Part shown: one piece after another, positions 6,001-47,415 of the stretch
How the letters are laid out: each line of letters opens with the position of its first letter
How positions within the stretch are numbered: position 1 is the first letter of the stretch
NCBI GenBank assembly: GCA_002706405.1
Contig: PALN01000096.1
Coordinates: 1-64,000, forward strand
Direction of reading: 5' to 3'
From: Rhodospirillaceae bacterium
GTDB lineage: Bacteria > Pseudomonadota > Alphaproteobacteria > Rhodospirillales > Casp-alpha2
Length of the DNA stretch: 64,000 nt
Notes under the pieces: model-generated
Told to the model about the DNA's origin: nothing
Database searches by the model: none
What the model saw: only the letters and a program-made list of their open reading frames with translations
Position numbers and translations under genes: made by a program

Positions 6001-9000
6001 GCCATCACGGCTGCGAACAGCGCCGCGATCCTGGCGGCGGACGAAGACGCCGACACCGCCGCCGAGGCCGCCGAAGCCGCCTTGGCCCAAGCCAAGACCA
6101 GCGCCACCGCCGCCCTGTCGAAGGCGCAGGACGCCATCGACGACAGCGCGGAGATGCTGGAGCTTGCCACCAGCTTCAATCAGATCACCCTGACCGGCAC
6201 GCCCGCGGCGGACGACGTATTCACCCTGACCATCGACCCAACGCCGGGGGATGCCGGCAACGGCGACGCCATAACCGTGACGGTCACGGCCAATGACGGC
6301 GACACCATCGACGACATCCGTGATGCCCTGGTCGGTGCGGTCAACGACGAAGCCGACCTGCAAGGCATCGCCAAAGCGTCGGCGACCAGCGGTTCCGGCG
6401 GCTTCGTGGTTGCCGCCGCCACGTCCGGCAACAGCATCGGCGTGACGGTCACCGAAGACGGCGATGCGACCGGCGCCGAAAATGCGTCGGAGCTGATTCT
6501 GAATGCCCTGGCCGCCGCCAACACCGCCCGGACCACGATCAACGACCTTCTGGCCGACAACGAATTGGACGGCGATGGCGACACCACGGCGGCAGCCCTG
6601 GACAACGTGGTGGACGCTTTGGATGATGCCATCGCCGCGACTCGCCAGACCGTGTCGGTCACCATCGGCGGCACGTTGGAAGTTGGCGACACCCTGACTG
6701 TTTCCTTCGACAGCGACGGCGATGGCACCGTGGATCTCCCCGTCGTTCTTACGGTCGGCGCCGATACAGCGGGCAGCACCGACCTTGCCGATATCCGCGA
6801 CGCCTTCGTGGCCAAGATCAACACGGCGCTCAACGGCAACGTCGAATTTACGGCGTCGGCGGCGCTCCAGGATGGCGAACTGGCGCTGATCTCTGACAAT
6901 CCGGCAGCGGATTTCATGCGGATTACCGCAAGCGCCGTCAATGAGGACGGCGTGGCCGGCGAGGCGCCGTCCATCAGCGCCGCCCGCACGGGCACGGAAG
7001 CGGCGCTGCGGGCATTGAAAAACGGGTTGGTAGAGGCCTCCGCCGTCGCCGACGTCATTGAGGCCGCTGTCGACATCGCAGGCACGGCCGCCGGAACGGC
7101 GCGCGCTGCCGCCGACGGCCTGAATCCGGAAAGTGCCGCCACCATCGTCGGCACCGCCAACAGCCTTGGCAATCTGTCTCCCGCCCTGGACGCGAACGTG
7201 CCGGCGGACGTCGTGACCGCCGCTCAGCTTTTGGCGGAAATCGCCGAAGGCTACGTGCCCGACGCTCTGTCCGGTGCCGCCACGGCGAATGCCCAGGCGA
7301 CCATCGCCCAGCAGGCCGCGTTCCAGGCGGCGGCGGGCCTTGCCCAATTCGAACAGGTGATCAACAAGGCCCGCAACGAGGCCGAGTTGAGCATTCAGCA
7401 GGAAGCCCGCGATGCGGCCCCCGTGGCCGGCGACGACGTCATCGGTGATGGGGACGCCGCGAACGGCGGGCCGGTCAGCGGCGACGACGAGGTCCTGGAA
7501 GACCAGGCCATCACCTTCGACATCCTGAGCAACGACAAACGCGCCGACGGCGGCGACCTCGCCAACGCAACCATCGCCGCGGTCGGCCAGCCGGCCCACG
7601 GCAAGATCACCATCGTGCCTGAAGTCAGGGAATTGAATTTCACCACGGGTTTCAGCGACGGCGACACGATCACCCTGACCGTCAACGGCGTCAGCATTAT
7701 CTATACGCTGGATGGGGATTTAATCCCCCAATCGAACGCCGATGAGTTCGCGGCCCTGATCAACAACACGCCGGCCATGTCGGCCGTGGTAACCGCGGCC
7801 GGCGCCGGTCGCGGCGGCGCCATCACCCTGACCTCGGCCGTGCCCGGCACGCCGATCGTCGCCAGCGTCGAGGTCGATGGCAATTTCGATGCCGATGTCG
7901 ATACCGTCACCGTTCCCAACGGCCGGGTGACCTACACACCCACCGCCGATTACAACGGCACGGACACCTTTACCTATACGGTATCGAATGGCGCCACGCC
8001 GCCGTCCTTCGACACGGCGACCGTCACCATCGAGATCACGGCGACCAACGACAACCCGGACGCCAAGAACGACTTCATCACCACGTCCGACGACAGCACG
8101 GCGATCAGCAAGACCGCCGCGACGGGCCTGCTGGCCAACGACACGGATATCGACACCGGCGACAGCCTGACCGTCATCGAAGTGAACGGCGACAGCAATG
8201 ACGTCGGAAACGCGCAAAGCGTGAACTTCACCCTGCCCAACGGCGACCCGGCGGTCGCCCTGGTCACGATCAACGCCGACGGCAGCTACACGGTCAATCC
8301 GAACGGCGAGTTCGAACAGTTGGCCGCCGGCCAATCGGCGACGGGGACCCTGACCTATACGGTGTCCGACGGCCATGCCGGAACGGATGATCAGACAATT
8401 TCCCTGGCCAACACCGTGGCCAACGCCACCGGGGTCAACCAGGTCTCGACCTATACCGTCGGCGGCACAATCGAACGCGGTGACGTGTTCGAGATCACCG
8501 TCAACGGCACCCGCATTTCCCATGCGGTGACCGACGAGACGACCGCGAACGAGGTGCGCGACGCCCTCGTCGCCAAGTTGAACGCCAACGGCGTGATCGC
8601 CGGCAAGGTCGCCGCTTCGGCCGGCGGCGGCGGCGAAGTGGTGATCACCGCCAATCTGGCGGGTCAGGCCTTCACGACCTCGGCCCAGGCGATCAACGCC
8701 GGCACCGACGTCGCCACCCTGTCTGTGACGATCACCGGATCGAACGATGCCCCCGTGGCCGACGCCGACACGGCGAGCGGCGACGAAGACACGACCATTA
8801 CCGGCACCCTGACCGCGACCGACCCGGACCTGGGCGACACGCTGACCTTTGCCGTTGCCGGCGGCGGACAGGCCACCAACGGCACCGTCACGATCCAGTC
8901 GGACGGCAGCTTCAGCTATGTCCCCAATGCCGAGTTCAGCGGCACGGACAGCTTCACCTTCCGCGTTATCGACGCCGCAGGTATCGCCAGCACGGCGACA

Positions 9001-24213: not shown

Positions 24214-24678
24214 ATGCCTAAAGCCTCAAGCAAGAACGAAAGCCACCGGCAAAAGCGGCTTCCGCCGGGCGTCTCCAACCCGGTTGATATCCATGTCGGC
24301 CAACGCCTGCGGCTTCGTCGCACGCTTCTTGGCATGAGTCAGGAAAAGCTCGGCGATGCGGTGGGCCTGACCTTCCAGCAAATTCAGAAGTACGAACGGG
24401 GCGCCAACCGCATCGGCGCCAGCCGCCTGTACATGTTTTCGCGGATTCTCGACGTGCCGGTCGCCTATTTCTTCGAGGAACTGCCGTCGCAGATCCGTAC
24501 CCACGAAGGACAGATGCAGATCGGCCTGTCCGATTTGCCGCAGGACACGCTGGAACGCGACCCCATGGCGCGCCGCGAGACCCTGGAACTGGTTCGCGCC
24601 TATTACGCCGTGGGCAACCCCAAGGTTCGGCGCCGGATCGTCGATCTTGTCCGTTCCCTGAGCGGCGAGGAAGACTGA
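24214..24678 (+). CDS. XRE-family helix-turn-helix regulator (paralogue 1)
   Basis: This 154-residue DNA-binding protein has a Lys/Arg-rich N-terminus followed by an HTH_3 domain at about residues 28-85: VGQRLRLRRTLLGMSQEKLG, then GLTFQQIQKYERGANRIGAS with the recognition helix. The C-terminal half (about 90-154) ends in a helix with VRAYYAVGNPKVRRRIVDLV. This architecture is common and often multi-copy in alphaproteobacteria. A paralogue lies at 35240-35698 with a near-identical core. Target genes are unknown. It converges on the carbamoylase-type hydrolase gene 37 bp downstream. Confidence 0.9.
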   Translation: MPKASSKNESHRQKRLPPGVSNPVDIHVGQRLRLRRTLLGMSQEKLGDAVGLTFQQIQKYERGANRIGASRLYMFSRILDVPVAYFFEELPSQIRTHEGQMQIGLSDLPQDTLERDPMARRETLELVRAYYAVGNPKVRRRIVDLVRSLSGEED

Positions 24679-24715: not shown

Positions 24716-25957
24716 TCAGGCAACCCCCGCCCGCGCGACCATCGCTTCCAACAACACCTGACAGCCTGCGGCCAAATCCTCCGGCGCGGCGTATTCCCGC
24801 TCGTTGTGGCTGATCCCGTCCTTGCACGGCACGAAGATCATACCCGTGGGTGCGGCCTGCGCCAGATTGCAGGCATCATGCCCGGCGCCGGAATGGATAT
24901 CGCGGCAGGCCAGCCCCAGCCGCTTGGCGGCGGCCCGCACGGCCTCGACGCAATCCGGGTCGAAACGGATCGAATCACGGCCAAACATCTCCGCGACCTC
25001 CACCTCCAGCCCGGTTTCCCCGGCGACGGTTCGGCACAACGCCTCGGCGCGGGCGCAGATATCGGCCAGCAAGGCATTGTCCGGATGGCGGATATCGACG
25101 GAAAAGGTAACCCGTCCCGGCACCGTGTTGCGGGAATTGGGCCGCACCTGCAGATAGCCCGTGGTGATGACCGGCAGGGGATCAAACTCGAAGGCCAGGC
25201 GGTTGAGCCCGTCGATCATGCGCGCCGCCCCGACCAGGGCGTCGCGGCGCAGGGGCATCGGCAGTGTTCCCGCGTGACCTTCCTCGCCGGTCACGGTGAC
25301 GGTGTAACAACGGCGCCCCTGGGCGCCGAGCACGGCGCCGATGACCGCCCCTTCCCGTTCCAGAATCGGGCCCTGTTCGATATGCGCCTCGAAGAAGGCC
25401 GAAATGGGATAACCGCCACAGGGGGCATCGCCGTCATATCCGATACGCGCCAGTTCCCGGCCCAGGGTGGTCGTGCCCTCGCGGTCGGGCAGATTGCGCC
25501 CGAAATCCAGATCGAACTGCCCGGCATAAACCCCCGAGGCGACCACCCCGGCGGTGAAGCGCACGCCTTCTTCGTCCGTCCAATTGATGATTTCAAGGGG
25601 GGCTCGGGTGGTGAGTCCGGCCTCGTTGAGGGCCCGCACCACCTCTAGCCCGGCCAGCACGCCGTAGGCGCCATCGAACTTTCCGCCGAGGGGCTGACTG
25701 TCCAGGTGACTGCCGGTGACGACCGGGGGGGCCGTGTCGTCCGTGCCGGCGCGGCGGCCGATGATATTGCCCATGCGGTCGACCCGAACGGCCAGGCCCG
25801 CCTCCTTGCACCAGTCGACGAACAGATCCCTGCCCGCCTTGTCCAGATCGGTGAGCGCAAGGCGCCCGACACCGCCGCCCGGCGTCGCGCCGATCCGGGA
25901 CATCTCCATGAGAGACCGCCACAGGCGGTCCCCGTCCACTGCTGCCGTCACCGCCAT
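24716..25957 (-). CDS. Zn-dependent M20 amidohydrolase (N-carbamoyl-L-amino acid hydrolase / allantoate amidohydrolase family)
   Basis: This 413-residue protein matches the hydantoinase/carbamoylase branch of M20. Metal ligands are seen in GSHLDSQPLGGKFDG (His and Asp, about residue 82-96), the acidic pair in WTDEEGVRF, and the late His in SGAGHDACNLA. The bacterial exopeptidase dimerisation domain lies between, about 205-325. Family members hydrolyse N-carbamoyl amino acids, ureidoglycine-type compounds or related amides; the substrate here is unknown. Its start overlaps the end of the amidase gene by 10 bp, so the two are translationally linked and follow the TAXI binding-protein gene. No hydantoinase or allantoinase gene is present, which argues against a purine or hydantoin pathway confined to this locus. 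Confidence 0.9.
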   Translation of the reverse strand: MAVTAAVDGDRLWRSLMEMSRIGATPGGGVGRLALTDLDKAGRDLFVDWCKEAGLAVRVDRMGNIIGRRAGTDDTAPPVVTGSHLDSQPLGGKFDGAYGVLAGLEVVRALNEAGLTTRAPLEIINWTDEEGVRFTAGVVASGVYAGQFDLDFGRNLPDREGTTTLGRELARIGYDGDAPCGGYPISAFFEAHIEQGPILEREGAVIGAVLGAQGRRCYTVTVTGEEGHAGTLPMPLRRDALVGAARMIDGLNRLAFEFDPLPVITTGYLQVRPNSRNTVPGRVTFSVDIRHPDNALLADICARAEALCRTVAGETGLEVEVAEMFGRDSIRFDPDCVEAVRAAAKRLGLACRDIHSGAGHDACNLAQAAPTGMIFVPCKDGISHNEREYAAPEDLAAGCQVLLEAMVARAGVA

Positions 25958-27264
25958 TCGCCGACCTTGTCCGCCAGCCAGCGGCAGATCCGCAGCAGTT
26001 TGGCATCCTGCCCCCAGGGACAGATCACCTGCACGCCGATGGGCATGCCGTCGGCTCCTTTCAGCAACGGCACGCTGGCCGCGGGTGCCCCCATGAGGGT
26101 CCAGTAACCGTTGAAGGACGCATCGCCCGTGCGGGTGAGCTCACGCGGCGCCTGGCCCGGTGCCGCCGGGGTCAGGATCGCATCGACGCCGTCGAAGAAC
26201 CCGGCCAGGGCATCCTGCATTTCCTCGGCCTGATAGAGGGCATCCAGGTATTCCCGGGCCGTGACCGGGCGGCCGCGTTCGACCCGGTCGGCCGTGATCG
26301 GGTCCAGGCCCGCGCGATCGCGGTCGTAATAGGGACCAAGCGATTGCCCGACCGCACCGTTCATCACCATGCCGTGGCATTCAAGGGCGGCATCGAACAC
26401 GGGCGGCAGGTCCGCTTCCCGCACGTCGTCGCCCAGATCGCGGGCCAGACCCTCGATCGCCTGCTGCATGTCCGCTTCGCCGCGCCCCCAGGCCGGCCCG
26501 CGCACGAAGGCCAGACGCGGCGGCGCGGTGAGCGGGTCCGCCTCGCCCATCTTCGGATGTGCGCGCATGTCCTTGTCCGCCGGATCGCGCTGCATCAGCA
26601 CCCGGCCGGCCAGGGCCATATCCTCGGGCGTGCGCGCGAAGATGCCGGGATGGTCCAACCGCCGCGATAGGGGCGACATGCCGGCACGGGAAATCGTGCC
26701 GAAGGTGGGTTTAAGCCCGTAAACGCCGTTGAAGGACGCCGGGCGCAGCATGGACCCGCCGGTCTGCGAGCCGATGGCCAGCGGCACCATGAAATCGGCG
26801 ACCGCCGCCGCCGAGCCCGAGGACGAGCCCCCCGGCGTGCGGGCCGGATCATGGGGATTGCGCGTCTTACCGGGGGCCGAGAGGGCGAATTCCGTGGTCA
26901 CGCATTTGCCCATGATGACCGCCCCGGCCTGGCGCAGCAGGGCGACCAGGGTCGCGTCCGTGTCCGGGCGTCGCCCGGCACACAATTGGGAGCCGTTTTC
27001 CGTCGGCTGATCGGCGGTATCGATGATGTCCTTGATCCCGACGGGAATGCCGTTGAGCGGCCCGGCTTGCCCGTCGCGGCGGCGCTGGTCGGCGGCATCG
27101 GCCTGGGCCAAGGCCAGGTCCGGATCCAGGAAGGTCCAGGCGCGGACGGTGTCTTCGCGCTCGGCGATGCGGTCCAGGCAGGCCTGTACCAGTTCACGGG
27201 CGGATAGGTCGCCCGATTCCATGCGGGCAAGCGCCGCTTCGGCGCTCAGTCGGCAGATATCCAT
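25948..27264 (-). CDS. Amidase-signature family enzyme
   Basis: This is a 438-residue amidase of the GatA/AtzF-like signature family. The Ser-cisSer-Lys triad region is visible: Lys in GIPVGIKDIIDT (about 77), the GGSSSGSAAAV signature with cis-Ser, and the nucleophile Ser in GSQTGGSMLRPASF. These enzymes hydrolyse amides or carbamoyl compounds to acids plus ammonia. No GatB or GatC gene is near, so it is a free-standing catabolic amidase and not the tRNA amidotransferase subunit. It lies 13 bp after the TAXI gene and overlaps the hydrolase by 10 bp, forming a three-gene operon in which binding protein, amidase and carbamoylase probably act on one nitrogenous substrate (inference). Confidence 0.9.
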   Translation of the reverse strand: MDICRLSAEAALARMESGDLSARELVQACLDRIAEREDTVRAWTFLDPDLALAQADAADQRRRDGQAGPLNGIPVGIKDIIDTADQPTENGSQLCAGRRPDTDATLVALLRQAGAVIMGKCVTTEFALSAPGKTRNPHDPARTPGGSSSGSAAAVADFMVPLAIGSQTGGSMLRPASFNGVYGLKPTFGTISRAGMSPLSRRLDHPGIFARTPEDMALAGRVLMQRDPADKDMRAHPKMGEADPLTAPPRLAFVRGPAWGRGEADMQQAIEGLARDLGDDVREADLPPVFDAALECHGMVMNGAVGQSLGPYYDRDRAGLDPITADRVERGRPVTAREYLDALYQAEEMQDALAGFFDGVDAILTPAAPGQAPRELTRTGDASFNGYWTLMGAPAASVPLLKGADGMPIGVQVICPWGQDAKLLRICRWLADKVGEWR

Positions 27265-27277
27265 TTTATTGTTTCCT

Positions 27278-28342
27278 CTATGGGGCGGCTGGCGCTTTGT
27301 ACACGCCCTTTTCCTTGTAAAAGCGGGCGGCGCCCGGGCAATAGGGGATGGAAACGCCGGCGTGATGGCTTTCCAATGTCAGGTTTTTCCCCTTGGCATG
27401 GCCGTTTTTCAACAGGTGCGGCGCCTGCATGTTGCCGTAGAGCCCCTTGACCACGCCGTAGTGAAGATCGTCCGGCAGGTTCAGGCGCGACACCCAGAGG
27501 GCGGAGACGCTGACGGTTTCCACGGGGGTCGGATTGCCCCGGTAGGTGTTTCCCGGAATGATATCGGCGGAATAGAACGGCGCCTTGGCGATCAGGGCGT
27601 CGCGTTCCTTGCCCTGCACCGGAACCAGGGTCAGGCCCGTCGAGTTCGCCATCTCGAAGACCCCCGCGATGGGATAGCCGGACACGTCGATGAAAGCGTC
27701 CAGATGACCGTCGCGGACAAGTTCGGTGGCGGTCTTGGATTTTACGTACTCAGGCATGAAATCGCGATTTTCCACCAACCCGTGGGCGCCCAGGACCAGA
27801 CGGGCACCGACCTGAACCCCCGATTCCGGCAACCCGATCGAGACCCGCTTGCCCTTCAGGTCGTAGATCGACTTGATGCCGCGGTCCTTACCGGCAACCG
27901 CATGGACGTGTTCCGGATAGAGGCTGGAGAGCACGCAAAGTTTCTTGAATGCCTTCTTGTCGGCGAAGGGGCCCGTGCCCGTGTACGCCCAGTAGGTCAC
28001 ATCGGATTGGACGAAGGCGGATTCGACCTGGTCCGCGTCCAGGGCGGAGACATTGGCGACCGAGCCGTGGGCCGATTGGGCGAAGGCAACCAGCCCCTCC
28101 ATGCCGCAATTGCCGCCTTTGCTGCAACTGCGCGCCCCCGGCGGATTGGAAATCACCTGGGCCAACAGACCCGCCATGGGAAAGTACGTGCCGCCGGCGG
28201 CACCACTGGCGATCCGGAAGAACAGCATCTTCTGAGCCATGGCCGTGCCGGCATGCATCCAAAAAGCCACACCGCTTGCCAGGGCGGCGGCGACAACCAC
28301 GCATCGAATCAGCCGTGGGCGCTTCGCTTTTCCAAGGTTCAT
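27278..28342 (-). CDS. TAXI-family TRAP transporter solute-binding protein
   Basis: This 354-residue exported protein has a signal peptide with a hydrophobic core at about 13-35 and AMA-type cleavage. The mature part starts FFRIASGAAGGTYFPMAG, the hallmark of TAXI receptors, followed by a type II binding-protein fold with KGKRVSIGLPESGVQVGAR. TAXI proteins deliver small carboxylates or amino-acid-like solutes to a fused TRAP permease. No TRAP permease gene lies in this window, so it is an orphan receptor here. It heads the amidase/carbamoylase operon, so the ligand is probably the substrate of those enzymes or a precursor. It shares a 171-bp promoter region with the divergent thioesterase-GntR operon. 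Confidence 0.92.
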   Translation of the reverse strand: MNLGKAKRPRLIRCVVVAAALASGVAFWMHAGTAMAQKMLFFRIASGAAGGTYFPMAGLLAQVISNPPGARSCSKGGNCGMEGLVAFAQSAHGSVANVSALDADQVESAFVQSDVTYWAYTGTGPFADKKAFKKLCVLSSLYPEHVHAVAGKDRGIKSIYDLKGKRVSIGLPESGVQVGARLVLGAHGLVENRDFMPEYVKSKTATELVRDGHLDAFIDVSGYPIAGVFEMANSTGLTLVPVQGKERDALIAKAPFYSADIIPGNTYRGNPTPVETVSVSALWVSRLNLPDDLHYGVVKGLYGNMQAPHLLKNGHAKGKNLTLESHHAGVSIPYCPGAARFYKEKGVYKAPAAP

Positions 28343-28426
28343 GCTTATCCTCCCCCGCCATGGTGATCAATTTCACCCGCCGGGGCAACAGAGCAAGAGG
28401 GTTTTCCCCTGACGAAAAAGACAAAT

Positions 28427-28452
28427 ATTGTATACATTGGTATTATATACAG
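28427..28452. promoter_or_regulatory. Candidate GntR/FCD operator pair (ATTGTATACA / ATTATATACA)
   Basis: In the region between the divergent TAXI and thioesterase genes, ATTGTATACA (28427-28436) is followed by ATTATATACA (28442-28451). TTGTATACAA-type palindromes are typical targets of FCD-class GntR regulators, and one such regulator is encoded in the rightward operon at 28967. Autoregulation and control of both operons is an inference. Confidence 0.5.
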
Positions 28453-28513
28453 ACACAGACCGGCCTGAAAAAACAGGGGTCGACCGATAAAAGAAGGGGG
28501 GAGCAATCTGCCT

Positions 28514-28966
28514 ATGAACGAGCATTCGCCGACCATCGATACCACCCGGGCAGAAACCTTCCGCCACTGGACACCGGTCACCCTTCGATTTTCCGACCAG
28601 GACAGCATGGGACATGTGAACAATGTCTCCTACGCCGCCTTTGTCGAAGCGGGGCGCAACGCCTTCGTCACCCAGTATCTCAAGCCGGACACCCATCCGG
28701 GGATCGATTTCGTGCTGGCCCGCGTAACCATCGATTTCCGCGCCGAAATGCATTACCCGGGCACCGTCGATGTCGGCACCTGCATCAAGCGGATCGGAAA
28801 CTCGTCGATCACCATCGGCACCGGCCTGTTCAAGGACGGGCGCCTGCACGGCACCGCGGAAAGCACCAACGTGTTTATCGACCTGGGCACGCGCAAGCCC
28901 TGCCCCATTCCCACCGACGTGCGGGCCGAACTCGAACGCCAACTCAGCGAAGCGGCGGGCGCGTAA
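28514..28966 (+). CDS. Acyl-CoA thioesterase, 4HBT hotdog family
   Basis: This 150-residue YbgC/FcbC-like hotdog thioesterase carries the active-site motif FSDQDSMGHVNNVSYAAFVE, with Asp followed by GHVNN on the central helix, at about residues 27-46. It would release CoA from a short or aromatic acyl-CoA in the cytoplasm. It is the first gene of a rightward operon: the GntR regulator starts at the base after its stop codon. A GGGGGGAG ribosome site lies about 10 bases before the ATG. Substrate unknown. Confidence 0.88.
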   Translation: MNEHSPTIDTTRAETFRHWTPVTLRFSDQDSMGHVNNVSYAAFVEAGRNAFVTQYLKPDTHPGIDFVLARVTIDFRAEMHYPGTVDVGTCIKRIGNSSITIGTGLFKDGRLHGTAESTNVFIDLGTRKPCPIPTDVRAELERQLSEAAGA

Positions 28967-29659
28967 ATGACCAGCAAAGAGGACAACACGGAACAGCTGT
29001 CGCGCGGCGAATTCGTCCACGCGCGCCTGCGGGACGCGATCCGTGCCGGGCGGTATCCGCCGGGCACGCGCATCCGCGAGACCGAAGTCGCGGCCTGGCT
29101 CAGCGTCAGCCGCACGCCCGTGCGCGAAGCCCTTCGCCGCCTGCAGGCGGACGGGCTGCTGGTGTTCGAACCCTGGCGCGGCGTTGTCGTCGCCGAACTG
29201 GATCAGCAGCAGGTTGTCGAATTCTATGCCATGCGCCGGGTCCTGGACGGCGCGGCCGCCCGCCTGGCGGCGCAGCATGCGTCGGAGCCGGAACTGGCCT
29301 ATATGGAGGACTGCCTGAACGCGGCCTCCCCCGGTAAGGGCGATGTCGCCCAGATGGCCGAAGCCAACCGCCGCTTCCACGAAGCCCTGTTCCAGGCCGC
29401 GCACAACCGCTATCTGCTGAAATCGGCAGCCGCGCTTTCCGATGCGTTGGCCCTGTTGAAGGGAACGACTTATTCCTTTCCCGACCGGGCCGATACGGCC
29501 CATGAGGAGCACCGCGCCCTGATGGACGCCATCCGCGCGCGCGAGCCGGAAAAAGCCGAACGCCTGGCCCGCAAGCACATTGCCAAGGCAGAGAAGGCGC
29601 GGCTCAAGCTGCTGGGGAATCAGCGCGACGTGAAATTGTCCGAGGACAAATCGGAATGA
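28967..29659 (+). CDS. GntR-family transcriptional regulator, FCD class
   Basis: This 230-residue protein has an N-terminal winged helix (about 12-75) with TRIRETEVAAWLSVSRTPVR, the classic GntR recognition region. An all-helical FCD ligand domain follows (about 80-215), with likely metal or carboxylate ligand residues in RRFHEALF, EEHRALMDA and ARKHI. FCD regulators respond to small organic acids. It abuts the thioesterase upstream and overlaps the serine hydrolase downstream by 4 bp (ATGA), so it sits in the middle of the operon. It is the natural candidate to bind the TTGTATACA-like sites at 28427-28452. Confidence 0.92.
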   Translation: MTSKEDNTEQLSRGEFVHARLRDAIRAGRYPPGTRIRETEVAAWLSVSRTPVREALRRLQADGLLVFEPWRGVVVAELDQQQVVEFYAMRRVLDGAAARLAAQHASEPELAYMEDCLNAASPGKGDVAQMAEANRRFHEALFQAAHNRYLLKSAAALSDALALLKGTTYSFPDRADTAHEEHRALMDAIRAREPEKAERLARKHIAKAEKARLKLLGNQRDVKLSEDKSE

Positions 29660-30768
29660 CCTACTTTCCGCCCTCAGGCGGCGCTTGGGAAACAACCTCC
29701 GCGGAACAGGCCGGCCTGCATCCCGGCCGCCTGGCCGAGGCCGTAACCTTCGCCGAAAACGCGGAAACGTCCTGGCCGCGCGACCTGGACCGGGCGGAAT
29801 TCCTGCCGACACTGACCCAGCACGAACCCCCTCCGTGGAACGAAATTCTCGGCCCTGTCGCCGCCCGAGGCGGCCCGGCGGGCCTGTTCATCCGGGGCGG
29901 ACGCATCGTCACCACATGGGGCGATCCGGCCCGCGCCGACATGACCTTTTCCATCGCCAAAAGCTATCTCGCCGTGCTTGCGGGATTGGCGCTGGGCGAG
30001 GGGCTGATTTCCGACCTGGACGATACCGTCGCGGGCTATGTGGACGGCGACTGGTTCGCCTCGGAGCACAACGCGTCGATCACCTGGCGCCACCTTCTGA
30101 CCCAAACCTCGGAATGGCAGGGCACCCTGTTTTCCAAGCCCGATCAGGTCGATCATTTCCGCACGCTCGGCCATGGCGGCGGCGAATCGAAAAAGGGCCA
30201 GAAGCGCGACCTGGGGGCCCCCGGCACCTATTGGGAATACAATGACGTTCGCGTCAACGCCTTGGCACTTGCATTGCTGCATGTGTTCCGCCGGCCCCTG
30301 CCCGAGGTACTGCGCGATTCCATCATGGCTCCGATCGGGGCATCGGACGATTGGCGCTGGATGGGGTACCGCAATTCCGGGGTGATCATCGACGGCGTCG
30401 AGATGAGTTCCGTGCCCGGCGGCACCCATTGGGGCGGTGGCCTGCAGATTTCATCCCTCGACCATGCCCGGTTCGGCCTGCTGATCAAGGAAGACGGCGT
30501 GTGGAACGGTCACCGCATCCTGCCCGAAGGATGGGTCAGCGCCCTGCGCACGCCCTGCGCGCTCAATCCCGTCTATGGCTATCTGTGGTGGCTGAACACG
30601 GATCGGGCGCAGTATCCGTCGGCACCCGAAAGCAGCTTCTTCGCCATGGGGGCCGGCACCAATTTGATCTGGATCGATCAGGAACTGGACATCCTGGCCG
30701 TGTTCCGTTGGGTCGACCAACCGTCGCTGGACGCGGTAATATCAGGCTTCATGGCGGCGATGGAATGA
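29656..30768 (+). CDS. Beta-lactamase-fold serine hydrolase (esterase/DD-peptidase-like)
   Basis: This 370-residue cytoplasmic protein without a signal peptide belongs to the class C beta-lactamase-related serine hydrolases. The catalytic S-x-x-K is in FSIAKSYLA (about residue 98-106) and the second motif Y-x-N appears as YND in YWEYNDVRVN. Lack of an export signal argues against antibiotic resistance or wall metabolism and favours an esterase or amide hydrolase in the catabolic operon. It overlaps gntR by 4 bp and the dioxygenase gene follows 30 bp downstream. Confidence 0.86.
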   Translation: MTYFPPSGGAWETTSAEQAGLHPGRLAEAVTFAENAETSWPRDLDRAEFLPTLTQHEPPPWNEILGPVAARGGPAGLFIRGGRIVTTWGDPARADMTFSIAKSYLAVLAGLALGEGLISDLDDTVAGYVDGDWFASEHNASITWRHLLTQTSEWQGTLFSKPDQVDHFRTLGHGGGESKKGQKRDLGAPGTYWEYNDVRVNALALALLHVFRRPLPEVLRDSIMAPIGASDDWRWMGYRNSGVIIDGVEMSSVPGGTHWGGGLQISSLDHARFGLLIKEDGVWNGHRILPEGWVSALRTPCALNPVYGYLWWLNTDRAQYPSAPESSFFAMGAGTNLIWIDQELDILAVFRWVDQPSLDAVISGFMAAME

Positions 30769-30798
30769 CCGCCTGACCCGTTCCCGGAGCATCCGAAC

Positions 30799-31761
30799 AT
30801 GACCCCTGAAGACATTCTGCGTTATCCCGCGCGCGTCCTGACCCAGGCCCAGCGCGAAGCCTATTTCCGCGACGGCTATCTGGTCGCCGAACGCCTGATC
30901 CCCGACGACATCGTCGACGAGATCAACCGCGTCACGGCGGACTGGATCGAACGCTCCCGCGCGCTGACCAAACCAAACGATGTGCTGGACGTGGCCCCCG
31001 GCCATACGGCCGACAGGCCCGTGGTGCGCCGCCTGAAAAAGCCCGACGGCATGGACCCCGCCTATTGGCAATTCGCCAACGGCATCATCGCCGACGTGGC
31101 CGCGGACCTTCTGGGCCCCGACGTCTGCTTCCATCATTCCAAGCTGAATTTCAAATGGTCCGACGGCAAGGACGAGGTCGCCTGGCATCAGGACATCGCC
31201 TTCTATCCCCATACCAACCATTCGGTGCTGGCCATCGGCACCTATCTGGCCGACGTCATGCCGGGGGACGGACCGCTCGGCGTCATTCCGGGCAGCCATC
31301 TGGGGCCGGTCTACGAACATTATGATGCGAATGGTATCTGGACCGGACGCCTGACCGACGCGGACGTGGCCGAACTGCCGACCGACACGGCGGTCTATTG
31401 CCCCGCCCCCAAAGGCTCGATCACCGTGCATCACGCCCGCGCCGTGCATGCCACCGAGGCGACGACCCAGACGGTGTCCGGGCGGCCGCTTTTGATCAAT
31501 TCCTATGCCTCGGCCGATGCCTTTCCCTATACGGCGCTGAAGGACACCTACACGGAGCATTTCCGGGCCCTGGTGCGCGGCCAGGCTGCCAAATGGGCGC
31601 ATATGGACCCGGAGCCCTGCCCCACACCGCCGGACTTTTCCGCGGGCTATACGTCGATTTATGCTCAGCAGGCGGGCGAAGCGGGCACGCCGACGCCGCG
31701 CGATCCCGGCCACCGTCCGCCGGCGGCCGTCGCGGCGGCGCTCAAACCGGCTGCCGAATAA
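30799..31761 (+). CDS. Phytanoyl-CoA dioxygenase (PhyH) family protein
   Basis: This 320-residue Fe(II)/2-oxoglutarate oxygenase has the iron ligands His-x-Asp in VAWHQDIAF (about residue 132-140), the distal His in VHHARAVHA (about 211-219), and the 2-oxoglutarate Arg in SGRPLLINSY. PhyH enzymes hydroxylate acyl-CoAs, amino-acid-like compounds or secondary metabolites; the actual substrate cannot be read from sequence. It is the last gene of the thioesterase-GntR-hydrolase operon. The C-terminal ~40 residues are Pro/Ala-rich and probably disordered. Confidence 0.9.
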   Translation: MTPEDILRYPARVLTQAQREAYFRDGYLVAERLIPDDIVDEINRVTADWIERSRALTKPNDVLDVAPGHTADRPVVRRLKKPDGMDPAYWQFANGIIADVAADLLGPDVCFHHSKLNFKWSDGKDEVAWHQDIAFYPHTNHSVLAIGTYLADVMPGDGPLGVIPGSHLGPVYEHYDANGIWTGRLTDADVAELPTDTAVYCPAPKGSITVHHARAVHATEATTQTVSGRPLLINSYASADAFPYTALKDTYTEHFRALVRGQAAKWAHMDPEPCPTPPDFSAGYTSIYAQQAGEAGTPTPRDPGHRPPAAVAAALKPAAE

Positions 31762-32061: not shown

Positions 32062-32586
32062 ATGAAGTATTCCCTGGGTGACCTTAAGGTCCAGACCGAT
32101 GGCGACAACTATTGGATCGCGCCGAACGCCGTCGTGATCGGCAACGTCATCCTGAAAAAGGATGCCAGCGTCTGGTTCGGCGCCACTGTCCGCGCCGACA
32201 ACGACGTCATCACCATCGGCGAAGGCACGCAGATTCAGGACGGCAGCGTGCTGCACGCGGACCCCGGGTTTCCCCTGACCATCGGCGACCATTGCACGGT
32301 CGCCCATATGGCCATGCTGCACGGCTGCACGATCGGCGACGGCACCATGATCGGCATCGGCGCCGTGGTCCTGAACGGCGCCAAGATCGGCAAGAACTGC
32401 ATCATCGGCGGCAAGGCGCTGATCGGCGAAGGCAAGGAAATTCCCGACAATTCCCTGGTCATGGGCATCCCCGGCAAGGTCATCAAGGAAGTGTCCGACG
32501 CGCAAAAGGAAATGCTCGCCCGCATTCCGCCCCACTACGTGGAACGCTGGAAGCGCTATAAGACCGAGATGACGCCTCAGGACTGA
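32062..32586 (+). CDS. Gamma-class carbonic anhydrase family protein (YrdA/PaaY-like)
   Basis: This 174-residue left-handed beta-helix protein shows hexapeptide repeats such as [21 protein letters not shown] and ITIGEGTQI. The three zinc-ligand histidines are placed as in the family: one in VLHAD and two in [10 protein letters not shown]. Members bind zinc or iron; some have carbonic anhydrase activity, others are of unclear activity. A GGAG ribosome site precedes the ATG. It stands 25 bp ahead of the acyl-CoA synthetase gene and may share its transcript. Confidence 0.93.
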
Positions 32587-32611: not shown

Positions 32612-34156
32612 ATGAAGATTCCCGCCATGGACCTGCCCATCGACCACTTCCTCCGCGCCGCCGCCAAGGCGCCGGATCGCATCGCCATCAAGGACGGGGA
32701 TCTGACCCTGTCCCACGGCGATCTGGCCGCCCGCGTCAACGCCGTCGCGGCCGCCCTGCAAGACATCGACCCGGCACCACAAAGCCGGGTCGGCATTTGC
32801 GGGTACAACACGGTGGAGCATCTGACCGCGTTCCTCGGCACGCTGGCCGCCGGCAAGACCTGGGTTCCCCTGAATCCCCGCAACGGGGAAGAGGAATTGT
32901 CGCGCATGGTCGAGGCAACAGCGCCCTCGATCATCGTCGCCGACGCCGACTGCATGGGCCGCTTCGACCCCGGCAGCGCCACGGTGGTGCGGGGACGGCC
33001 GACCGGCGGCAGCCAGCACGCCTGCGGCGGCGATCTCAACCTGGCGGCCTTGATGAGCGATTTCGCCGGTCGCATGCCGAAACGCCATGACCTGGCCCCC
33101 GACGACGTCCAGGCCATCAAGTTCACGGGCGGCTCGTCCGGCCGGCCCAAGGGCGTGCAGCAGACCTATCGCGTGTGGCACACCTGCATCGACCTGATGA
33201 CCCGCGCGTTCGAACTGGACGGCGACGACCGCAACCTGCTGGCCGCCCCCATGACCCACGGCACGGGCACCCTGCTGGTGCCGATTCTGGCCCAGGGCGG
33301 GATGCAGGTCTTCATGCCGCAGCCGGCGCGCCCGGCGGCGATCATCGACGCCATCGAAAAGGACCGGGTGACCACGGTGTTCCTGCCGCCCACGGTGATC
33401 TACATGATGATGGCCGAGGAAGACCTGACCAAACGCGATTTCAAGAGCCTGAAGCATGTCATCGTCGGCGGCGCCGCCATGCGCCCGGACGAAATCAAGC
33501 GCGGCCTACCCATGTTTAACAATGCCCTGGAAACCTGCTACGGCCAGACCGAAGTGCCGCAGATCGTCACCGTCATGCGGTCGCGCGACTGGCTGGACAA
33601 CGACCATCGCCTGGCGTCCTGCGGTCGGGCCACGGATCGCTGCGACCTGCGCGTGGTCGATTCCGAGGGCAATTTCCTGCCGACCGGCCAGGCCGGCGAA
33701 ATCGTCATCAAGTCCGACCTGGTGATGAAGGGCTATCTGGACATGCCCGAAGCCACGGCCGAAACCATCAAGGACGGCTGGCTCTATACGGGCGACGTGG
33801 CGGCGATCGAGGAAGACGGCTTCATCTACATCAAGGACCGAATTCGCGACATGATCGTCACCGGCGGCTTCAACGTGTTCCCGTCCGATGTCGAGGCCGT
33901 TCTGGGCCAGCATCCGGCGATCAAGGAATGCGTCGTGTTCGGCCTGCCCGACGACAAATGGGGTGAGGCCGTGCAAGCAGCGGTGGAGGTCCACAAGGGC
34001 CAAACGCCGGGTGAGGACGAGATCATCCAATACGTCAAGTCGCGCCTGGATTCCGTGAAGGCGCCGAAGCGCGTGCATTTCGTCGACGAGCTGCCGCGCA
34101 GCCCCGTGGGCAAGGTGCTCCGGCGCGAAGCCAAAGCTCAATTCCAGGAGGCGTAG
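32612..34156 (+). CDS. AMP-forming acyl-CoA synthetase (class I adenylate-forming enzyme)
   Basis: This 514-residue enzyme activates a carboxylic acid with ATP and joins it to CoA. Seen are the P-loop-like FTGGSSGRPKGVQQTY (about residue 170-185), the YGQTE motif (about 310), the hinge YTGDVAAIEEDGFIYIKDR, and the C-terminal catalytic Lys in SPVGKVLRREAK. There is no strong ribosome site; the start at 32627 (MDLPIDHF) is equally possible. A citrate-synthase-like gene begins 8 bp after the stop, so the two are co-transcribed and may act in sequence on the same acyl-CoA. Substrate class (long chain, aromatic or dicarboxylic) cannot be fixed. Confidence 0.93.
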   Translation: MKIPAMDLPIDHFLRAAAKAPDRIAIKDGDLTLSHGDLAARVNAVAAALQDIDPAPQSRVGICGYNTVEHLTAFLGTLAAGKTWVPLNPRNGEEELSRMVEATAPSIIVADADCMGRFDPGSATVVRGRPTGGSQHACGGDLNLAALMSDFAGRMPKRHDLAPDDVQAIKFTGGSSGRPKGVQQTYRVWHTCIDLMTRAFELDGDDRNLLAAPMTHGTGTLLVPILAQGGMQVFMPQPARPAAIIDAIEKDRVTTVFLPPTVIYMMMAEEDLTKRDFKSLKHVIVGGAAMRPDEIKRGLPMFNNALETCYGQTEVPQIVTVMRSRDWLDNDHRLASCGRATDRCDLRVVDSEGNFLPTGQAGEIVIKSDLVMKGYLDMPEATAETIKDGWLYTGDVAAIEEDGFIYIKDRIRDMIVTGGFNVFPSDVEAVLGQHPAIKECVVFGLPDDKWGEAVQAAVEVHKGQTPGEDEIIQYVKSRLDSVKAPKRVHFVDELPRSPVGKVLRREAKAQFQEA

Positions 34157-34164
34157 ATCCCCCC

Positions 34165-34983
34165 ATGTCCAACAAAACCGACAGAATCAAACCGACCCAG
34201 AAGCTGGCGACCCACACGCTGACCGATCTTTATTACCGGGATCAAAATCTGGTCACCGAGATGATGGGCAAGATGAGCTTCACCGAAGCCATGATCGGCC
34301 ACATCCTGGGCCGCCCGGCCACACCCGCGGACATCGCGATCATCGACGCGGTCCTGCTGGCCCTGATGGAACACGGCCTGACGCCCAGCGCCGTCGCCAC
34401 CCGCCTGACCTATCATTCGGCGCCCGAAGCCCTGCAGGCCGCCGTCGCGGCGGGACTGCTCAACGTCGGCTCGACCTTCGTCGGCACCATGGAGAACTGC
34501 TCCAAGCTGCTGCGCGAGATGGTCGACGGGACGGAGCCCCTGGACGCCGCGGCCAAGCGAATCGTCGCGGAGCATCGGGCGGCACGCAAGCATCTGCCCG
34601 GATTCGGCCATCACCTGCACAAGCCGGATGATCCGCGCACCCCGAAACTGTTTGAAATCGCCCGGGCGAACGGCGTCAGGGGCGATTACATCCGCGCCAT
34701 CGAGGTCCTGAGTCAGGCCGTCGACGATTCGTTCGGCAAGCACATGACCATCAACGCCACGGGCGGCACGGCGGCGGTGCTGTCGGAAATCGGTATCCCG
34801 CCGGAGATCATGCGCGGCTTCGCCGTGATCGCCCGCGCCGCGGGCCTTGTCGCCCACATTGCCGAGGAACGGGAAGTCCCCACGGCGCGGACCATCTGGG
34901 ACCTCGTCGAAGAGGAAATTCCCTATTCGGGGAATGCCGACCTGGGCAATCTGGACGACGGCAACGACGGCGGCGACGACTGA
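34165..34983 (+). CDS. Short citrate-synthase-like protein (citryl-CoA lyase family)
   Basis: At 272 residues this is much shorter than canonical citrate synthase (about 370-430), matching the citryl-CoA lyase-type group. The GFGHHLHKPDDPRT motif (about residue 149-162) corresponds to the citrate synthase GFGH....DPR block. Two active-site positions differ: the HGGAN block reads FVGTMEN, and the NVD block that normally supplies the catalytic Asp reads NATGG. A loss of Asp would point to changed chemistry or a different acyl-CoA. The C-terminal ~25 residues are Asp/Gly-rich. It follows the acyl-CoA synthetase by 8 bp, suggesting condensation or cleavage of a 3-hydroxyacyl-type CoA ester (inference). 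Confidence 0.82.
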   Translation: MSNKTDRIKPTQKLATHTLTDLYYRDQNLVTEMMGKMSFTEAMIGHILGRPATPADIAIIDAVLLALMEHGLTPSAVATRLTYHSAPEALQAAVAAGLLNVGSTFVGTMENCSKLLREMVDGTEPLDAAAKRIVAEHRAARKHLPGFGHHLHKPDDPRTPKLFEIARANGVRGDYIRAIEVLSQAVDDSFGKHMTINATGGTAAVLSEIGIPPEIMRGFAVIARAAGLVAHIAEEREVPTARTIWDLVEEEIPYSGNADLGNLDDGNDGGDD

Positions 34984-35239
34984 CCTGTCGCCCCGGTCCG
35001 GCCCGGTCGGACCCAGGAACCCCCATATACGACCTATAGATGTGCTGTTCCGCCAATCGGAACTATAATTCCGTGCATTTCGCGATGATGATAGGCCTTT
35101 CGTCTAGATAACATGCGGATATGCAGTGTGTTAGCGTGCGCGCGGATTCAAAGGGTTAGCTCGCCCTGAAATCCTCCATAAATCAGATTAATTATCCGGG
35201 CATTCGACCGGATAGTAAAAACGGAGGTTGAAACCGTAT
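34984..35239. promoter_or_regulatory. Intergenic region with palindrome and TATAAT upstream of XRE paralogue 2
   Basis: This 256-bp non-coding region contains a perfect inverted repeat GTTCCG-CCAAT-CGGAAC (35047-35063) directly followed by TATAAT (35064-35069). It looks like an operator overlapping a promoter; no good -35 hexamer is seen. A weaker hairpin GGTCCG/CGGACC (34995-35013) just after the citrate-synthase-like gene lacks a T-run and may or may not terminate. A GGAGG ribosome site at 35223-35227 fixes the start of the downstream gene. Confidence 0.5.
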
Positions 35240-35698
35240 ATGCCCAGAGTATCTAAAAAATCGCACCCAAACCGCATGCCACCCGGGGTTGCACACCCCG
35301 TAGACATCCATGTCGGCGGGCGGGTTCGCGGGCAGCGAAAATTGAAGGGAATGAGTCAGGGGGAACTGGGGGATGCTCTCGGTCTGACGTTCCAACAAAT
35401 TCAGAAGTATGAACGCGGCGCCAACCGCATCGGCGCCAGCCGGCTCTATCAGCTCAGCCGGATTCTCGACGTTCCCGTCGCCTATTTCTTCGATGGCATG
35501 GCGCAAGACATTCAAATGACCCAGGATAATTTCGACCTGGATGTCGTGTTCACCGAAGACCCGCGGGATTCTTCGGCGGTCATGGGATCCAGCGAGACGA
35601 CCGACCTGGTCACCGCCTATTACAGCATCGACAATCCGCGCAAGCGTCGCGCGGTCCACGATCTGATCGCGTCGCTGTCCAAGGCGGATTGGGACTAA
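35240..35698 (+). CDS. XRE-family helix-turn-helix regulator (paralogue 2)
   Basis: This 152-residue protein has an HTH_3 domain at about residues 23-80 with MSQGELGDALGLTFQQIQKY, and shares the blocks NRIGASRLY and SRILDVPVAYFF with paralogue 1 at 24214. The C-terminal helix keeps VTAYYSIDNPRKRRAVHDLI. I chose the ATG at 35240 with GGAGG 12 bases upstream; a TTG at 35228 in the same frame is less likely. The perfect palindrome at 35047-35063 could be its own operator. It converges on the cytochrome c gene 9 bp downstream. Confidence 0.9.
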   Translation: MPRVSKKSHPNRMPPGVAHPVDIHVGGRVRGQRKLKGMSQGELGDALGLTFQQIQKYERGANRIGASRLYQLSRILDVPVAYFFDGMAQDIQMTQDNFDLDVVFTEDPRDSSAVMGSSETTDLVTAYYSIDNPRKRRAVHDLIASLSKADWD

Positions 35699-46562: not shown

Positions 46563-46582
46563 GGCCGTCTATACTCCCGATA

Positions 46583-46592
46583 TTGTATACAA
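46583..46592. promoter_or_regulatory. Palindrome TTGTATACAA upstream of SDR gene
   Basis: A perfect 10-bp palindrome TTGTATACAA lies 28 bp before the SDR start, in the 58-bp gap after the ArsR gene. It matches the GntR-like sites at 28427-28452 and would be well placed to repress the SDR promoter. The binding protein is inferred only. Confidence 0.5.
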
Positions 46593-46620
46593 AAAGAACA
46601 CCCCTCGGGAGCATCCACAC

Positions 46621-47415
46621 ATGAGACTGAAAGACAAAATCGCCATCGTCGTCGGTGGCGGACAGCAGGCCGGCGAGACCATGGGCAACGGCCGCGCCAC
46701 CGCCCTTCGCTTCGCCCAGGAAGGGGCCACCGTGCTGATCGTCGATTATGACGAAGCCAGCGCCGCCGATACCCTCAAGATGATCACCGATGCCGGCGGC
46801 AAGGGATCGACCCTGCGGGCCGACATCCGCCGTGAGGATGATTGCCGCAATATCGCCGCGACCTGCGCCGAACGCTATGGCCGCATCGACATCCTGCACA
46901 ACAACGTGGGCCGGTCGCGCGGCGACAAGCCGACGACCGAGCTTGAGGCCGAAATGTGGGACGAACTGTTCGAGCTCAACCTGAAGGCCATGTTCATGAC
47001 CTGCAAACATGTCCTGCCGGTGATGCGCGAAAAGAAGTCGGGATCGATCATCAACATTTCCTCGACCTCGTCGCTGTGCTCGCGCGGCACCATCGCCTAC
47101 AAGACGTCCAAGGGCGCCATCAACACCATGACCCATATGCTGGCCATGGAGAACGCGCCCCACGGCATCCGCGCCAACGTCATCATCCCGGGCCTGATCG
47201 ACACGCCCATGGCGATCGAGCGCCGGGCCCAGGAACGCGGCGTCGACCGCAAGGTCGTACGCGACGAACGCGACGCCCAAGTGCCGCTTTACGGGCGCAT
47301 GGGCACGGCCTGGGACGTGGCCAACGCGGCCCTGTTCCTGGCCTCGGACGAAGCGCAGTACATCACCGGCGTGTTGCTGCCCGTGGACGGCGGGATCTCT
47401 TCAAGAATCGGATAA
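46621..47415 (+). CDS. Short-chain dehydrogenase/reductase
   Basis: This 264-residue Rossmann enzyme has the nucleotide-binding start AIVVGGGQQAGETMGNGRA, a variant of TGxxxGxG with a longer loop, and NNVG at about 96-99. The catalytic Ser lies in NISSTSSL and the catalytic YxxxK in AYKTSKGAI. The C-terminus ends VDGGISS, as in classical 3-oxoacyl-ACP reductase-like SDRs. Substrate is unknown. A GGGAG ribosome site lies 10 bases before the ATG, and the TTGTATACAA palindrome overlaps the likely promoter. Confidence 0.92.
   Translation: MRLKDKIAIVVGGGQQAGETMGNGRATALRFAQEGATVLIVDYDEASAADTLKMITDAGGKGSTLRADIRREDDCRNIAATCAERYGRIDILHNNVGRSRGDKPTTELEAEMWDELFELNLKAMFMTCKHVLPVMREKKSGSIINISSTSSLCSRGTIAYKTSKGAINTMTHMLAMENAPHGIRANVIIPGLIDTPMAIERRAQERGVDRKVVRDERDAQVPLYGRMGTAWDVANAALFLASDEAQYITGVLLPVDGGISSRIG

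Follow-up and report, generated by a model that had tools for sequence, protein, structure and literature searches.

Positions 24716-31761 of a contig from an uncultured Rhodospirillales bacterium (PALN01000096.1; the 64,000 nucleotides analysed are called the window below) hold seven genes in two divergent operons, which raises the questions of whether these genes form one catabolic unit, what that unit might degrade and how it is controlled. The island proved to be real and conserved: its genes belong to ordinary enzyme families, their combination has no pathway name, and the regulator and its operator are the most interesting part. The reading we favour, with a probability of roughly 60%, is that these genes form a conserved catabolic island which serves an imported compound of the amide or ureide type and has a GntR/FCD repressor of its own as the switch. 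The genome containing the window (the home genome) measures 3.6 Mb and is 89% complete, and its near relatives are Rhodospirillales metagenome-assembled genomes. Genera were labelled from the genome search, g1 being the window's own genus (8 genomes in the comparison set) and g2, g3, etc., the others.

The divergent operons and their operator

The leftward operon (minus strand) comprises CARB (24716-25957, 413 aa), an M20-family hydantoinase/carbamoylase-type amidohydrolase, AMID (25948-27264, 438 aa), an amidase-signature hydrolase (PF01425, 295 bits), and TAXI (27278-28342, 354 aa), a TAXI-type solute-binding protein. The rightward operon (plus strand) comprises TE (28514-28966, 150 aa), a hot-dog (4HBT_2) acyl-CoA thioesterase-like protein (PF13279, 74 bits), GNTR (28967-29659, 230 aa), a GntR/FCD-family regulator (PF00392, 64.7 bits; PF07729, 94 bits), SH (29656-30768, 370 aa), a cytoplasmic serine hydrolase of the beta-lactamase/family VIII esterase fold (PF00144), and PHYH (30799-31761, 320 aa), a PhyH-family 2-oxoglutarate oxygenase (PF05721, 82 bits). 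As originally predicted, all seven were intact open reading frames with agreeing Pfam domains (M20 peptidase, Amidase, NMT1_3 for TAXI, 4HBT_2, GntR plus FCD, Beta-lactamase and PhyH). Adjacent frames overlap by 4-10 bp or are separated by gaps of 0-30 bp, and every island gene is under purifying selection within the genus (ratio of non-synonymous to synonymous substitution rates, dN/dS, 0.03-0.26).

The gap between these tightly packed operons is exactly the 171 bp (28343-28513) that had been described as a shared control region, and promoter-like pairs occur in it on both strands. The GntR-like site expected there was present as ATTGTATACATT (28427-28438, plus strand), between the -35 (28418) and the -10 (28441) of the predicted rightward promoter and directly past the -10 (28442-28447) of the predicted leftward promoter; these promoters are consensus matches, and the scan yields no more of them than shuffled sequences give. 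The site itself stands above chance: matches to ATTGTATACAWT with up to one mismatch were expected 0.02 times in the window and found at two places (28427 and 46582). Its 10-bp core, ATTGTATACA, is invariant across the genus, while the surrounding sequence diverges.

GNTR's own operon thus carries a palindromic TGTATACA operator at or beside a predicted -10 box, an arrangement for which a precedent exists. The FCD regulator Atu1419 of Agrobacterium fabrum binds ATGTATACAT overlapping the -10 boxes of catabolic promoters (PMC7797058), and the two systems have in common a helix-turn-helix plus FCD protein, a TGTATACA-core palindrome overlapping -10 boxes, and control, proposed in the case of GNTR, of adjacent catabolic operons and of the regulator's own. 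On this precedent, the control mode proposed here would be of a known kind. The two differ in the operator (ATGTATACAT for Atu1419, ATTGTATACAWT for GNTR), in the genes concerned (a hydroxycinnamate-degradation region versus a divergent amide island) and in the number of sites per genome, which is much higher for GNTR. For the proposed regulon, with its enzyme set and size, no description was found in the literature searched; no paper was found that combined TTGTATACAA with GntR, nor any that combined three of the island or neighbour families queried.

Regulator, operator and gene neighbourhoods in related genomes

Among the family genomes with SH, the 12-bp palindrome was present in all 13 with GNTR beside SH and in 1 of the 11 without (Fisher p=5.6e-6, relatedness uncorrected), and the same contrast in presence and absence was seen inside genera g6 and g8. 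Counts of ATTGTATACAAT per genome were 7-12 in g1, 1-5 in g3, 6 in g13 and 1-2 in those g6 and g8 members that have GNTR; the sequence was nearly absent from g2, from g5 and from the g6 and g8 members without GNTR beside SH. GNTR orthologues (55-62% identity) adjoin SH or AMID in g3, g6, g8 and g13. In g6, g8 and g13, the palindrome lies directly 5' of a TcuA-like-GNTR-SH cluster; nine g3 genomes have it between AMID and GNTR, and in g3 it additionally precedes the TcuA-like gene on other contigs. At two g6 loci (L054 and L055), neither the TcuA-like gene nor GNTR was present beside SH, and the palindrome was missing from both genomes. In g3 (L145, L148-L155), AMID and GNTR diverge around the palindrome, mostly near queA, tgt, a queF-like gene and an oligopeptide-type ABC permease gene; the queuosine genes (QueA, Tgt, QueF-like) were taken as bystanders.

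The original prediction would have been contradicted by two operons that never occur together in related genomes, which is not what the comparison showed. SH, AMID and GNTR were found together in 8/8 g1 genomes and TAXI in 7, and all eight keep the island. PHYH was missing from one g1 island (L033), and another (L036, relative G210) had only PHYH fragments (7800-8500), as of a decaying gene, and no TAXI, this second island being otherwise largely intact. Since the flanking genes are also syntenic within g1, the distant genera weigh more. In g2 (L037, L038, L059/L143), CARB-AMID-TAXI is directly divergent from SH (47-64% identity), and in g8 it lies close to SH: one 15-kb contig (L130) carries CARB-AMID-permease-TAXI, ECH-TE, a FAD monooxygenase, MmgE/PrpD and TcuA-like-GNTR-SH, and two further g8 loci (L131 and L146) are apparently the halves of such an island split by assembly. 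CARB-AMID is divergent from ECH-TE in g6; LeuCD-like and TcuA-like genes, TE and AMID stand together in g12; and TE is divergent from AMID in g13. Overall, CARB is paired with AMID in g1, g2, g6, g8, g13 and g14, and TE is divergent from AMID or TAXI in g1, g6, g8, g12 and g13.

The conserved associations, as read from these neighbourhoods, are therefore the sub-modules CARB-AMID(-permease-TAXI), TE beside AMID or TAXI, and GNTR-SH. The idea of seven families co-occurring as one unit did not hold at that level: PHYH is a genus-level, lineage-specific addition, and PHYH relatives elsewhere were not beside SH. Around SH in Bosea, Phreatobacter and others, the genes were unrelated.

The core ATTGTATACA has 23 sites in the home genome (33 strand matches, since the 10 palindromic sites count on both strands), versus 1 for the reversed control. 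Twenty-one of the 23 keep their place in the sister species G111; the regions concerned share 82-94% identity, and at that level we estimate that roughly 30% of neutral 10-mers would persist. Most sites precede a gene, mainly a catabolic one, by no more than about 200 bp. Among these genes are four for TauD oxygenases, two for members of CoA-transferase family III, two for acyl-CoA dehydrogenases and two for enoyl-CoA hydratases, as well as MmgE/PrpD, a TcuA-like FAD protein, MFS transporters and an SDR. About 20 of the operator sites lie beyond the island (L206-L225), the four before TauD-family oxygenases among them. Nine FCD regulators are encoded in the home genome and GNTR alone has a site at its own operon, which favours it as a broad regulator, another FCD protein of the same specificity being possible. 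At somewhat less than even odds, GNTR may be a broad catabolic regulator of about 20 g1 transcription units acting via ATTGTATACAAT, its reach having expanded from the few targets seen in related genera (the GNTR operon and a TcuA-type dehydrogenase). Plausible targets would include the TauD oxygenases, CoA-transferases, acyl-CoA dehydrogenases, MmgE/PrpD, the TcuA-like FAD protein and the transporters. The gene combination thereby becomes testable as a regulon, made up of a single operator, a candidate regulator and a defined set of enzymes. Should GNTR govern all the sites, knowing one ligand could be enough to predict how about 20 operons are expressed in this uncultured lineage, and identifying that ligand would name the pathway.

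Enzymes, transport and proposed working

CARB scored above the cut-offs of TIGR01879 (405 vs. 204 bits) and NF006769 (574 vs. 452), but not that of the allantoate deiminase model AllC, TIGR03176 (258 bits, cut-off 598); its solved relatives include beta-alanine synthase and N-carbamoyl-L-amino-acid hydrolases, and at subfamily level it is a carbamoylase/deacylase. AMID carries the catalytic Lys-Ser-Ser motifs of the amidase-signature family (GIKD at 76, GGSSSG at 145 and TGGS, within TGGSMLRP, at 168). Its best solved relative was malonamidase E2 (234 bits), with which these motifs are common, and urethanases were more distant; none of the named NCBIfam amidase models listed reached its cut-off, and malonamate as the AMID substrate found no support. 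The SH model (predicted local distance difference test, pLDDT, 88.9; predicted template modelling score, pTM, 0.91) has the beta-lactamase/family VIII esterase fold, with Lsa45, PIB-1, EstG and the 6-aminohexanoate-dimer hydrolase NylB as the nearest solved folds. SH shares the fold (Z 25-29 over 270-293 residues) and the SxxK/Y motifs (SIAK at 99-102, plus YND) with family VIII esterases, PIB-1 and NylB, but at 15-24% identity it forms a distinct family with invariant residues of its own (SIAK, EYNDVRVN and HWGGG in an alignment of 30 sequences). A signal peptide was not apparent in SH; the modelled fold and motifs fit an ester or amide hydrolase without defining its substrate. The predicted iron site of PHYH comprises HQD at 130, a His in HARAVH (212-217) and the distal Arg R229; its identity with the ectoine hydroxylase EctD, and with it ectoine degradation, was discarded (TIGR02408, 37 bits vs. 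a cut-off of 336).

TAXI cleared the receptor model TIGR02122 (264 vs. 84 bits). A cognate TRAP permease is absent from its operon, the gap between TAXI and AMID (27264-27278) being only 13 bp, whereas the g8 island (L130) has an 885-aa DctM-type permease between the two genes. The DctM-type genes of the home genome are on other contigs only, at least two with TAXI partners of their own; the island TAXI thus appears to be orphaned, and would need a permease partner in trans. Compared with VcGluP, a glutamate receptor of the TAXI-TRAP type (PMC11574862), the operon lacks a permease, and alignment suggests that the pocket residues Y45, S75, Q93 and E125 are kept while H123, Y200 and M201 are altered (to Y, D and V, respectively). 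These apparent changes make L-glutamate an unlikely ligand.

The original prediction of an N-acyl or carbamoylated compound may still hold, but the neighbours in related genomes indicate something narrower. GNTR-SH is accompanied there by a TcuA-like dehydrogenase, often with MmgE/PrpD and LeuCD-like hydratases, genes which suggest a di- or tricarboxylic skeleton; with moderate confidence, gene content makes an amide or ureide derivative of a di- or tricarboxylic acid the more likely substrate. A named route that resembles this is tricarballylate utilisation, since in relatives GNTR-SH shares an operon with a TcuA-type dehydrogenase (580 bits against a cut-off of 369); the amide-cleaving enzymes of the island are extra to that route, and the home genome yielded no TcuA orthologue at E<=1e-90. 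A pathway of the isonicotinate/citrazinate type (amidase, TcuA and aconitase), considered as a lead, was not adopted: no paper describing it was found in the literature searched, and the home genome has no TcuA orthologue. The island stays as it had been described, a catabolic combination (two C-N hydrolases and an imported compound) for which no named pathway was found.

We infer the following working. Without inducer, GNTR would occupy ATTGTATACATT, one site that could shut both operons because it lies between the rightward -35 and -10 and also where the leftward transcript begins. Binding of the substrate, or of an early product, to the FCD domain would open both. The compound, captured by TAXI, would be passed to a permease whose gene lies outside the island; AMID and CARB would cleave two C-N bonds, and SH would take off an ester or amide substituent. 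The carboxylic-acid product, most likely di- or tricarboxylic, would be processed by TE together with other CoA enzymes in trans, PHYH and the genes downstream of it (GCA-LIG-CCL) being probable later additions of the genus.

Several observations weigh against this reading. The g2 module has neither an adjacent GNTR nor the operator, so that regulation by GNTR through this site is not universal; absence of GNTR was scored beside SH rather than genome-wide; the AMID tree leaves open whether the window AMID groups with other CARB-AMID pairs; and PHYH and TE have no demonstrated tie to amide chemistry. The operator could also belong to another genome-wide regulator, GNTR being local and the island just one of about 23 targets. 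Nearly all of the core sites are without an adjacent FCD regulator and eight further FCD proteins are available, but palindrome counts follow the presence of GNTR even inside g6 and g8, in five genera the GNTR operon itself carries the site, and a single other FCD gene (on contig C54) lies near a core site, at about 4 kb. We regard such a regulator as somewhat unlikely.

An N-carbamoyl amino acid hydrolase role for CARB, in a pathway for a pyrimidine, a hydantoin or an allantoate-type ureide, would agree with the subfamily models and solved relatives given above. It seems unlikely, given that neither the island nor the annotated islands of relatives showed a cyclic amidohydrolase, that CARB falls far short of the AllC cut-off and that the genes added in relatives are instead TcuA-like, PrpD and LeuCD-like. 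The operons might, lastly, be neighbours by history only, amide utilisation by CARB-AMID-TAXI standing beside an unrelated TE-GNTR-SH-PHYH with no common substrate. SH is indeed widespread alone (Bosea and others), and PHYH and LIG-CCL are found elsewhere without SH. Against this stand the shared divergent control region, whose one operator is invariant, the proximity of CARB-AMID(-TAXI) to SH again in g2 and g8, TE beside AMID or TAXI in five genera and GNTR beside AMID in nine g3 genomes, and we regard a purely historical neighbourhood as quite unlikely. The preferred reading remains an amide- or ureide-degrading island under its own repressor.

Downstream and flanking genes

The rightward operon had been predicted to end at 31761, but the plus-strand run goes on after a 300-bp gap with GCA (32062-32586), a gamma-carbonic-anhydrase/PaaY-like hexapeptide protein, LIG (32612-34156), an AMP-forming acyl-CoA ligase (PF00501, 241 bits), and CCL (34165-34983), a citryl-CoA lyase-like protein (NF004868, 301 bits, cut-off 193) whose best solved relative was citryl-CoA lyase 6hxp. 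GCA precedes LIG in g1, g2 and g14, and in g2, g8 and g14 the LIG-CCL pair recurs together with a flavin reductase. LIG-CCL was taken as a separate module and rejected as an obligatory pathway step because in G046, a one-contig genome of a related genus, the pair lies 2.1 Mb from SH.

The second operator core in the window (46582-46593, plus strand), conserved in G111, is separated by 28 bp from the SDR gene that follows it (46621-47415). Two related Xre-type regulators (24214-24678 and 35228-35698, about 50-60% identical across the genus) bracket the island on the same strand.

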